Origin: a virus
IMG/VR virus record: IMGVR_UViG_3300036780_000075
Coordinates: 1 to 40,036 of that record
DNA length: 40,036 nucleotides
Strand: one strand, 5' to 3'
Positions 33,602-39,176 of this stretch are shown here, piece by piece (within the stretch, counting starts at the first letter, position 1; each line of letters opens with the position of its first letter). The notes beneath the pieces are model-generated. The model saw only the letters and a list, made by a program, of their open reading frames with translations. It did no database searches and was not told the DNA's origin. The translations under genes and the position numbers were made by a program.

Positions 33602-33630
33602 TTGACGGTCCGTAGCTGGTCGCTTACAAC
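33602..33630 (+). promoter_or_regulatory. sigma70-like promoter
   Basis: TTGACG, a 17-base spacer and TACAAC, ending 83 bases before the DUF559 nuclease start. -35 matches 5 of 6 and -10 matches 4 of 6 consensus bases. It would transcribe the nuclease and recombinase genes. Confidence 0.5.
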
Positions 33631-33712
33631 CCCTACTGAAGTGCGGTTTAGAAGATGCTCCCCCTCAATCACGACGACGGCGGAGCGGTTTCAAAACCGA
33701 AAGGCGAAAACC

Positions 33713-34114
33713 ATGCGAAACGTGGCTCAAGTGCAATCGGCCGGCGAATCTCCGCGCTGGCTCCCGGCGGACCAGCGCGCCAGGGAGATGAGGGAGAGTG
33801 TGTCGCCGGAGGAGTTCGCGCTGTGGCGGGAACTACGCGGAAAAAACCTCGGCGCGAAGTTTCGCAGGAAGCACGTGGTGCTTCGCTTCTTCGACCGGCG
33901 AACCGGCAGCGTCGGCGGCTACATCTGCGATCTCTATTGCCCGAGCGCCAAGCTCGCCGTTGAAGTGGACGAGTCACCCATCGTACCAGGCTCACTGCGC
34001 CGCGACGCTGTTCTCTCCCGGCATGGAATCCGCCTGCTACGTTTCACGCGCGCGGAGATCTCCTCCGATCGCGCTGGAGTTCTCCACAAAATCAAACAAG
34101 CCCTCGCCAGCTAG
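33713..34114 (+). CDS. DUF559 endonuclease-like protein (Vsr-related)
   Basis: 133 aa from ATG 33713, AAAGG upstream. The DUF559 pattern is clear: AREMRESVSPEEFALWRELRGKNLGAKFRRKHVV, then GYICDLYCPSAKLAVEVDESP, and RRDAVLSRHGIRLLRFTRAEISSD. The D/E of ICDLYC and VEVDES would form the PD-(D/E)xK-type active site. The family is related to very-short-patch-repair endonucleases. Its role in phages is unknown. Its N-terminal codons contain a diverged hairpin-repeat copy (33759-33789). Confidence 0.8.
   Translation: MRNVAQVQSAGESPRWLPADQRAREMRESVSPEEFALWRELRGKNLGAKFRRKHVVLRFFDRRTGSVGGYICDLYCPSAKLAVEVDESPIVPGSLRRDAVLSRHGIRLLRFTRAEISSDRAGVLHKIKQALAS
33759..33789 (+). repeat. Diverged hairpin repeat, candidate copy 7
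   Basis: CTCCCGG...GCCAGGGAGAT shares both ends with copy 1 (7 and 11 identical bases) but lacks the TCGAC/GTCGA core. Inside the DUF559 coding sequence, where the ARExR residues are conserved in the family anyway, so it may be chance. Confidence 0.35.
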
Positions 34115-34209: not shown

Positions 34210-34827
34210 ATGGATCACCTCACCCGCGAACAAGTCGTCGAGGTGCTGGCCCGGGCGAAAGCCTCGAGCGATCGCGATTGGGTGCTCCTCCTGGTCTCTT
34301 TCTGGCACGGACTGCGCGCCAGCGAAGCGGTGAACCTGACGCCGGCAAACTTCAAGGGCGGCCGCCTGGTGATTCAGCGGCTGAAAGGCTCAGAGAAAAC
34401 CAAGCAGCGCCTCGTCGAGAACGCCGATCCGCTCCTCAACGAGCGCGCGGCCGTCGAGGCTTTTCTCGAGAGACACAAAAAACTGCACGCCGGCGACGGC
34501 GACGGTCAGCGCCTCTTCGAGATCTCCCGCTTCGCTTTCTATCGCTTGATGCAGCGCTACGGCCGCGCCGCGGGAATTCCTTCTGATCTCTGCCATCCGC
34601 ATGTGCTGAAGCACTCGATCGCGATGCAGACAATCAAACCGGCAGGGATCGAGAACGTCCGCGCCTACCTGGGCCACAAATCGATCGCGTCGACGGGGGA
34701 ATACCTCAAAGTGAGCGACGAGGCCGCCTGCGACGCCGTGGCGAGTGCTGAGAGGCGCAGGAAGCCTTCCGGGCAATCCAGCCTGGCCTTCGGCGATCCG
34801 GAAGAGGACCAGGACGAGCGGAGCTAG
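34210..34827 (+). CDS. Minimal tyrosine recombinase (FimB/Xer-like catalytic domain only)
   Basis: 205 aa from ATG 34210. Catalytic residues by motif: Arg36 (GLRASEAVNL), Lys59 (RLKGSE), His131 in HPHVLKHSI, His156 (LGHKSIAS), Tyr165 (TGEYLKVS). The usual second Arg of HxxR is Lys134 here. There is no N-terminal arm or core-binding domain, so the protein is the size of FimB/FimE invertases and not of typical integrases (about 350-400 aa). It may integrate the phage with helper proteins or invert DNA. C-terminus is acidic. Neighbours: DUF559 nuclease upstream, hairpin repeat copy 6 downstream. Confidence 0.85.
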   Translation: MDHLTREQVVEVLARAKASSDRDWVLLLVSFWHGLRASEAVNLTPANFKGGRLVIQRLKGSEKTKQRLVENADPLLNERAAVEAFLERHKKLHAGDGDGQRLFEISRFAFYRLMQRYGRAAGIPSDLCHPHVLKHSIAMQTIKPAGIENVRAYLGHKSIASTGEYLKVSDEAACDAVASAERRRKPSGQSSLAFGDPEEDQDERS

Positions 34828-35341: not shown

Positions 35342-36202
35342 TCAGGCAGCCTGGGCGTCCGCATGCTGTCCTCCCACTAGCACTTCCTTCCTGAATCTAT
35401 CCCCAGCAATCGATTTCAGAAAAACGTCCGCGCACGCCAGCGAAGCCAGCGCCAACGGGACGCCTGCGATCGGATCGATCGCGTAGTGCCATCCCGTCGT
35501 AACCGTTGAAATCACGATGAGCGTGGCCAGCGTGGCCAGTGGAATGCGCAGCGGTTTGATGAACCACAGCGCCCAGGCGCTGAAGACTGCCCAAATCGCG
35601 TGGTACGACGGAAAACAAATCGAAGCGGTCTGCAGCGCGAGCATCTCTCGCCCTACGCGCTGCTGCACGGCGCTGCCGGCGAAATGAAATCCGGCCCATG
35701 GGCCGATCGCCGGCGCGAAGGTGAAGATCGGAATCGTGAACATAAAAAGAAGCAGATTCGCGACGAGGAGCTGCTGCGCTCGTTTCTTCTGTCCGGAGAG
35801 AGCGGGAACCAGCACGGCCGCGAGCAGGAATAGATCGAGAAGCCAGTAGCTGAAATTGAGCGTCGCGACGATCCGCGGGAAATGGGCGAACCAGGCTATG
35901 ACTGCCGGCACGTTGATTCCCAGGGCGCGGTCCAGCTGGACGTAGGAGGCATCGCGAAAGGGAATGCCCAGCTTCATCGAGTAGGCTAGGGAATGCACTG
36001 TCACGCGGGGAATCAGCCCGGCCACCAGGACGGCCCAAGGCAGCGTCAGCGCGGCATCGCGCCGGTCAAATTGCCGCTTGTCGTGCCACAGGATCGCCGG
36101 GACGGCCGCGATACAAGCCAGGGCGATGTATGCCGCGGCGTGGAAGCCGGAGGAGATCCCGAACAGCAGCCCGCACGCCAGAAGCATGAAGAGGTGGATC
36201 AT
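35342..36202 (-). CDS. PAP2-superfamily membrane enzyme (PAP2_3-like)
   Basis: 286 aa, six or so transmembrane segments. The PAP2_3 motifs are present: LDRALGIN (about 90-97), FPSYHAIWAVF (197-207; S199, H201) and GWHYAIDPIAG (237-247; H239, D243). The enzymes of this family dephosphorylate or transfer head groups of lipid phosphates in the membrane. It has a GGAG ribosome site 9 bases upstream. It is alone on the minus strand, with no phage-structural neighbours, so it behaves like a moron (a gene expressed from a prophage that alters the host). Candidate effects: envelope lipid change, phage exclusion. Confidence 0.8.
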   Translation of the reverse strand: MIHLFMLLACGLLFGISSGFHAAAYIALACIAAVPAILWHDKRQFDRRDAALTLPWAVLVAGLIPRVTVHSLAYSMKLGIPFRDASYVQLDRALGINVPAVIAWFAHFPRIVATLNFSYWLLDLFLLAAVLVPALSGQKKRAQQLLVANLLLFMFTIPIFTFAPAIGPWAGFHFAGSAVQQRVGREMLALQTASICFPSYHAIWAVFSAWALWFIKPLRIPLATLATLIVISTVTTGWHYAIDPIAGVPLALASLACADVFLKSIAGDRFRKEVLVGGQHADAQAA

Positions 36203-37974: not shown

Positions 37975-38185
37975 TCCTGAAACCGGCGAGGAATGGCAGG
38001 CCGCAGTGGACGCAGCGCGGTTTTGTCTCGAAGTGGATTCGGCGAGGCAGTACGGGCTGATCGAAACGGACATGCAGATCGACGCAACACGATGTCTCTT
38101 CATCCTCGAAAAAGGCCGGGCGCAGGGAATCACGCCGGGCCGCGCGAATAGGAAGGGTCCGGATGGCAAACGCCTTCAGTACTGA
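37964..38185 (+). CDS. Small hypothetical protein
   Basis: 73 aa, overlapping the HTH gene by 11 bases. EEWQAAVDAARFCLEVDSARQYGLIE then DMQIDATRCLFILEKGRAQGITP form a helical, regular pattern. Family not recognised. It overlaps the next gene by 23 bases. Confidence 0.6.
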   Translation: MPRDPETGEEWQAAVDAARFCLEVDSARQYGLIETDMQIDATRCLFILEKGRAQGITPGRANRKGPDGKRLQY

Positions 38186-38348
38186 CCGCTATCAAGTTTG
38201 GTCGGCCAACGGCCGGCGCTCGGCCTATCTGTGGCACGTGATCGACACCGATCGCCACGGGAAGATTGTTGCCCGCACTTCCCAGCGCGATGGCGCCGAA
38301 AGTATCGCGAAGCAACTCAACGAGAAAGGCTTCGTGGAGAGCATATGA
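38163..38348 (+). CDS. Small hypothetical protein
   Basis: 61 aa, GGAAGGG upstream of ATG 38163. Strand-loop pattern (YQVWSANGRRSAYLWHVIDTDRHGKIVARTS) and a final helix (DGAESIAKQLNEKGF). It resembles small proteins with a double-strand plus helix (DUF4222-like or Arm-type domains), without firm assignment. Ends ATGA into the next gene. Confidence 0.6.
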   Translation: MANAFSTDRYQVWSANGRRSAYLWHVIDTDRHGKIVARTSQRDGAESIAKQLNEKGFVESI

Positions 38349-38851
38349 GCCTCGCGTCATTTGCGAACGCGGAGCTCGAGAGGCTCGACCGTGTCGAGCG
38401 CCAGAAGTTGCGGCCGTTCCGCCCGGCACTGCACGTGAGCTCTGAGTTTTGCGTTGATTGTCGCGCGCAGCGACGCGCAGTCGCGGGAGTGGCGACGATC
38501 GGCAACGAGAAGTTCTGCTCGAAGCATTTCGAGATTCGCGGCGGAAAAATCGCTGCGGCACAGGAGAAGACGATGCCTAAGAAGCACGATGTCGACTGGG
38601 GCCAGGTCCAGCGCGATCGCGACGGCGGCATGAAGGTGACCGACATCGAGAAGAAGTACGGTGTCTCGAATCCGACGATCTACGCGCACACGCACGGCAA
38701 GAACGGCGCCGGCAGAACGAACGAACGAACGAACGAACGAACGAACGAACGAACGAACGAACGAACGAACGAAGTGTTCGCTCGAAGGCTCGCAACGGAG
38801 CTGGCTTTGACGGCGTCCTCGCTGAATTGCGCGAAAAGCGCGACAAGCTGA
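38345..38851 (+). CDS. Zinc-finger/HTH protein with tetranucleotide tract (likely phase variable)
   Basis: 168 aa in the frame present here. Residues 36-68 hold FCVDCRAQRRAVAGV...KFCSKHFE (Cys4-type finger). Residues about 83-115 (DWGQVQRDRDGGMKVTDIEKKYGVSNPTIYAHTHG) are a helix-turn-helix. Then (GAAC)14 encodes repeated TNER. Beyond the tract this frame reads VFARRLATELAL and stops at 38849-38851. The other frame reads FDGVLAELREKRDKLNQAIAAIEQLEE and stops at 38887-38889, right before the next gene. One GAAC more (or two fewer) joins it, giving about 182 aa. The present copy number appears to be the off or altered state. Confidence 0.7.
   Translation: MSLASFANAELERLDRVERQKLRPFRPALHVSSEFCVDCRAQRRAVAGVATIGNEKFCSKHFEIRGGKIAAAQEKTMPKKHDVDWGQVQRDRDGGMKVTDIEKKYGVSNPTIYAHTHGKNGAGRTNERTNERTNERTNERTNEVFARRLATELALTASSLNCAKSATS
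38715..38773. repeat. (GAAC)14 microsatellite
   Basis: Fourteen perfect GAAC units plus GAA (59 bases) inside coding sequence. Four-base units change the reading frame on each slip, the hallmark of contingency loci. Also the region most likely miscounted in an assembly. Confidence 0.9.
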
Positions 38852-38894
38852 ATCAGGCCATCGCTGCGATCGAGCAGCTCGAGGAGTAGAAATC

Positions 38895-39176
38895 ATGCGC
38901 TGCGCGCGAATCAAACTGACTGATGGAACTGTGGCGATCATCTGCGGCCACACTCCGGCGAGCGCCACTTCTCTCTGCGCATTTTGCCGCCAGCCCTCCA
39001 CGAAGCTCTGCGATTTCCCCACGCGCGGCCGCACCGGCCGGCGCAAACCCTGCGACGCGCCGATCTGCAATTCCTGCGCGACTTCGCTGGGCCCGAACTC
39101 CGATCTTTGTCCCGCCCACGCTGCCGAGTGGCAGGGACTTCCTGTCGTCAGACTCGACCAGCGGAGGGCCTCATGA
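38895..39176 (+). CDS. Cys-rich small zinc protein
   Basis: 93 aa. IICGH, CAFC, CD..., CNSC, CPAH: at least six Cys and two His, spaced for two zinc sites. The start lies five bases after the alternative stop of the preceding gene (38889), so that frame fits operon spacing. Ends ATGA into the next gene. Confidence 0.65.
   Translation: MRCARIKLTDGTVAIICGHTPASATSLCAFCRQPSTKLCDFPTRGRTGRRKPCDAPICNSCATSLGPNSDLCPAHAAEWQGLPVVRLDQRRAS

Follow-up and report, generated by a model that had tools for sequence, protein, structure and literature searches.

What is a long, perfect tetranucleotide repeat doing in the middle of a small phage gene? The gene lies in a viral record of 40,036 bases (the window, meaning the whole stretch that was analyzed). 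The repeat consists of 14 GAAC units at positions 38715 to 38770, followed by a GAA that ends at 38773. It is 100% perfect, no other tandem array of the window comes close to it in strength, and dinucleotide-preserving shuffles contain 0 copies of even (GAAC)4. It is also free of stops, reading TNER in every forward frame. The initial annotation held that the tract is in coding DNA and likely switches a zinc-finger/HTH protein between two C-termini. The first statement is borne out, because the tract sits within a real gene with clear codon bias, and the second needs to be modified. The evidence reviewed here makes a phage contingency locus probable, in other words a phase-variable regulator with a coiled coil that is joined to, or cut from, an HTH by slippage.

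The window carries genes for terminase, portal, major head, tape-measure, endolysin and tyrosine integrase. Its first 127 bases are identical to its last 127, so that it closes as a circle of 39,909 bases, on which about 6.7 kb separate the switching gene from the large terminase gene downstream. With the tyrosine integrase (34210..34827, plus strand; phrog_216 E=6.5e-20, PF00589 E=1.8e-15) as context, the phage is temperate-looking. At 205 aa that integrase is short, consisting of the catalytic domain alone, and a DUF559 gene (33602-34114, E=4e-17) precedes it. Between the integrase and the early operon a PAP2-superfamily phosphatase gene, likely an accessory one, occupies the opposite (minus) strand at 35345-36202. 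ARAGORN calls a tRNA-Gly at 1304-1377, within an ORF for a 588-aa HerA-like ATPase (132-1898), and the call is possibly spurious.

As assembled with 14 units, the switching ORF runs from 38345 to 38851 on the plus strand and comprises an N-terminal part, the HTH, the TNER repeats and a tail, VFARRLATELALTASSLNCAKSATS. Its ATG at 38345 overlaps the stop of the upstream gene (38163-38348), and a codon-usage model trained on nine large window genes gives the N-terminal frame a log-odds of +46 bits, compared with -96 and -74 for the other frames. A possible zinc-ribbon-like segment (CVDC...CSKH, 38453..38532, plus strand) is matched in a related phage by CIPH...CRDC in a protein alignment, and has zero profile matches in Pfam or PHROGs. 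The HTH segment, DVDWGQVQRDRDGGMKVTDIEKKYGVSNPTIYAHTH, lies at 38574..38713 on the plus strand. Here the resemblance is to phrog_125 (DNA invertase; E=0.0019, residues 69-114) and, under its cut-off, to Pfam HTH_7 (E=0.086). Profile support for the earlier zinc-finger and HTH labels is weak. A Hin-type resolvase or invertase was considered and rejected, as there is the weak HTH resemblance alone, with no catalytic serine recombinase domain in the Pfam and PHROGs searches. The same searches gave no convincing repressor family match of the kind expected for a CI-type lysogeny repressor. The gene is placed mid-operon, and no divergent promoter was seen nearby. A candidate internal start, ATG 38574 behind AGGAG, has a good Shine-Dalgarno sequence, and both elements recur in the related phage. 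The HTH part may therefore begin there, making the zinc-ribbon-like part optional. Structure prediction from the single sequence was uninformative (pLDDT 44).

What happens beyond the tract depends on the number of units. With 14 units, a single assembled value for the window phage, translation continues into the tail (38774..38851, plus strand) and stops at 38851, which leaves an HTH without a coil. Enumeration of unit numbers confirms that 12 or 15 units join the HTH to a coiled-coil C-terminus, FDGVLAELREKRDKLNQAIAAIEQLEE (38776..38889, plus strand), and that 13 and 14 do not; any unit number divisible by three leads into the coil frame. This frame stops at 38889, 5 nt ahead of the next ATG at 38895. 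Both end points and the restoring unit numbers are as the initial annotation gave them. The locus thus has a perfect non-triplet tandem tract inside a coding frame, and a change of tract length shifts the product between a full and an altered or truncated form, as at contingency loci.

Are there really two C-termini? Codon usage suggests that there is one. The coil frame scores +22 bits over 37 codons (the other two frames score -12 and -31), and its per-codon score equals or exceeds that of the phage structural genes. The out-of-frame tail scores about zero (+1.2 bits over 25 codons). One relative, G001 (IMGVR_UViG_3300035696_000131; 37,412 bases), has a terminase 78% identical to that of the window and a much similar arrangement of terminase and switching gene. 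Its HTH segment is 65% identical in amino acids and its coil 53% identical in a codon-based alignment (66% in a shorter protein alignment). Changes between the two phages are in excess at third codon positions, both in the coil (13/13/22) and in the HTH part (12/7/23), and in this comparison the coil frame is the only frame free of stops. The tail, by contrast, differs between the window and G001. Given this codon bias and conservation, the sequence comparison indicates that the coil is the proper C-terminus and that the present tail did not evolve as an alternative end. An ON/OFF switch therefore fits better than two working C-termini, since the tail is unconserved and has no coding signal. 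The initial annotation was right about the coil as a conserved, codon-biased end, but not about the tail as its counterpart.

The relative also provides evidence that the tract varies. The G001 contig starts and ends within the switching gene, and its ends overlap by about 172-176 bases. They are identical outside the tract, and yet there are 8 GAAC units at the start and 7 at the end. At eight units HTH and coil share a frame, and at seven they do not. Two tract versions in the assembler graph are the simplest origin of such ends, so both lengths, one ON and one OFF, are present in one assembly and sample. This is length variation within a population, although it could reflect slippage in one lineage, two co-occurring strains or PCR stutter. 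A second case of the same kind is IMGVR_UViG_3300028797_000239 (L155:1-260 and the end of L216), a circular-looking phage contig with overlapping ends that differ only in ACAG count. Here the lengths are 13 and 10 units, both in the same frame.

What if the tract has a single, invariant length, and that length encodes the coiled coil? Short-read assembly can miscount repeats, and the window could be such an artefact. However, its 59-bp tract is far below the 127-bp terminal overlap that closes the window and would fit within a k-mer of that size. Moreover, the G001 tracts (28-32 bp) are easily spanned by reads and nevertheless occur in two lengths. An assembly error is thus hardly credible. 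Another scenario is that changes of three units matter, altering the (TNER)n spacer that separates HTH from coil, and with it operator spacing or affinity, and that frame changes are incidental. The tract does sit mid-protein and not behind the start codon, and for H. influenzae a modulation of protein function has been suggested for those few tetranucleotide tracts that lie in mid or late positions (PMC2651432). What does not fit is that the two G001 lengths are one unit apart, which changes the frame, and that the window is itself out of frame. Such a rheostat is very unlikely to be the main role of the tract.

The switching gene is rare. We looked for the gene and for GAAC tracts in 31 records of terminase relatives, and G001 was the only record with a tract or with a convincing gene copy. 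Because the other 30 have no convincing copy, the gene is a dispensable, accessory one in a changeable early region. In one of these relatives, G006, the coil match was marginal (E=0.006) and was not taken as a homologue, leaving a homologue set of one. Viral contigs searched with the N-terminal part as a single protein gave no match, nor did cultured phages when the locus was compared with them by blastn. For a two-row profile built from HTH plus coil, G001 was the sole match among viral contigs, and no genome contig matched; a degenerate GVSNPTIY pattern likewise hit G001 alone. Among the terminase relatives, a GGAACT hexamer is repeated five times at L073:1346-1375 and four times at L084:2160-2183; this 6-base unit preserves the frame.

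Could the tract be a microsatellite that expanded recently and is neutral, varying in length as such tracts do in a dispensable gene that is decaying here? The absence of the gene from most terminase relatives would agree with this, and so would the OFF state of the window as assembled. However, the G001 tract begins at the same point as that of the window (CAGAAC...), and for this reason the tract is probably older than the split between the two phages. In addition, the coil frame beyond the OFF tract is still codon-biased and free of stops. Decay would erode it unless the ON state were regularly selected. Nor is the tract a habit of the host. A Terriglobia (Acidobacteriota) MAG carries, on a 159-kb contig, a syntenic provirus with a terminase 77% identical to that of the window, which makes an acidobacterium the probable host. 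(GAAC)8 occurs in none of 297 Acidobacteriota genomes, and the tract is therefore not part of the host background. The HTH plus coil profile also found nothing in these 297 genomes, a search that had no positive control.

The wider survey of viral contigs bears on the same issue. At least 8 GAAC units were found in 24 viral stretches, compared with 43 for CAAG and 108 for ACAG as composition-matched controls. A special enrichment of GAAC in phages was therefore rejected, and the microsatellite explanation gains from GAAC being no commoner than its controls. On the other hand, GAAC tracts recur in one other family of putative regulators, in viral contigs unrelated to the window, and at two positions. 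In L022 and L028 the tract lies between a coiled coil and a winged helix (9 units, out of frame, in L022; 14 units, in frame, in L028), and in L013 and L031, of the same family, it lies ahead of the coil. The L028 protein matches Pfam HTH_20 above its cut-off, and its structure prediction (pLDDT 65 overall) shows a confident N-terminal helix and an HTH-like set of helices. These proteins resemble that of the window in combining a coiled coil with an HTH, in having the tract at the linker or N-terminus, and in occurring in in-frame and out-of-frame states. However, their domain order is opposite and their HTH is different, and the likeness to the window is limited to a similar coil in non-orthologous proteins. 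On balance, a neutral repeat in a decaying gene is unlikely.

Elsewhere, GAAC tracts come right after the start codon (L029 and L032) or fall in an apparent C5-methyltransferase (L009, L019 and L026, labeled by sequence motif instead of profile search). CAAG (L110-L152) and ACAG (L153-L230) tracts often interrupt or precede genes that, by motif reading, are methyltransferase-like or PAPS-reductase-like. The placement of GAAC in coil/HTH proteins of apparent soil phages stands out in this sample, which is small and was read by eye. It is tempting to generalize that phages of soil bacteria repeatedly turn small DNA-binding regulators into slippage switches, using a stop-free GAAC tract at the junction of HTH and coil so that the population hedges between two regulatory programs. 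We hold this idea tentatively, as slightly more doubtful than not.

One further possibility is that the switch acts mainly on the next gene by translational coupling. That gene (38895..39176, plus strand) encodes a small Cys-rich protein of unknown function. Several terminase relatives have a homologue, as does the Terriglobia provirus, and the gene is more widely conserved than the switching gene. Translation in the ON state stops 5 nt before its ATG and in the OFF state 43 nt before. In G001, however, its homologue lies about 1.5 kb further on (L017:1736) and not directly behind the coil. Moreover, the coil protein is itself conserved, which polarity alone would not need. An effect exerted chiefly through the downstream gene is very unlikely.

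The preferred reading, a phase-variable regulator, would work as follows. The gene would encode a small DNA-binding protein with a possible zinc ribbon, an HTH, a (TNER)n linker and a C-terminal coiled coil that probably makes the protein a dimer; DNA binding and dimerization are suggested by the weak profile matches and the character of the sequence. During replication of the phage or prophage, slipped-strand mispairing in (GAAC)n would add or remove units. When n is a multiple of three, HTH and coil would be made as one protein (ON). Any other n, including the assembled n=14, would give the unconserved tail without the coil, and with the probable dimerization helix lost the product would presumably be non-functional (OFF). 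The population would then be a mix of phages or lysogens with and without a working regulator, perhaps to its benefit. The role in lysis/lysogeny put forward in the initial annotation is possible but speculative, as no repressor-type family was matched and the gene is missing from most terminase relatives.

How does this compare with known systems? Slippage-driven phase variation is textbook material in host-adapted pathogens, where it affects surface molecules and methyltransferases. Phage invertases and diversity-generating retroelements act through recombination or mutagenic reverse transcription, typically on tail-fiber genes. They share with the present locus a phage-encoded random variation, but here slippage acts on a regulator instead. 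Phasevarions, including phage-borne candidates with ACAG, CAAG or GAAC tracts (L009, L019, L026 and many of L110-L230), also use a tetranucleotide tract to switch a gene that acts on DNA. The window gene matches no methyltransferase domain in Pfam or PHROGs, and therefore does not belong with them. The tetranucleotide contingency loci of Haemophilus influenzae and Neisseria (PMC2651432, PMC11868660) are alike in having a perfect 4-base tract in an ORF, a frame-dependent product and length polymorphism. Unlike them, the present locus belongs to a phage, whose host is probably an acidobacterium rather than a pathogen, and the tract interrupts a small putative DNA-binding gene mid-protein, between HTH and coil. 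The internal site is unusual because nearly all such tracts in H. influenzae come just after the start codon, whereas the rare internal ones have been put forward as modulators of function (PMC2651432).

A literature search covering open-licence papers turned up none on phage regulators that are switched by slippage. The gene probably turns on and off randomly, and bet-hedging of this sort, known from disease bacteria, has hardly been described for phage regulators. The occurrence of an ON and an OFF length in one assembly, in uncultivated, temperate-looking soil phages, suggests that phages apply the same bet-hedging to control genes of their own. In metagenome reads, a mixture of tract lengths would be a cheap marker for finding more cases and for measuring switching in nature.
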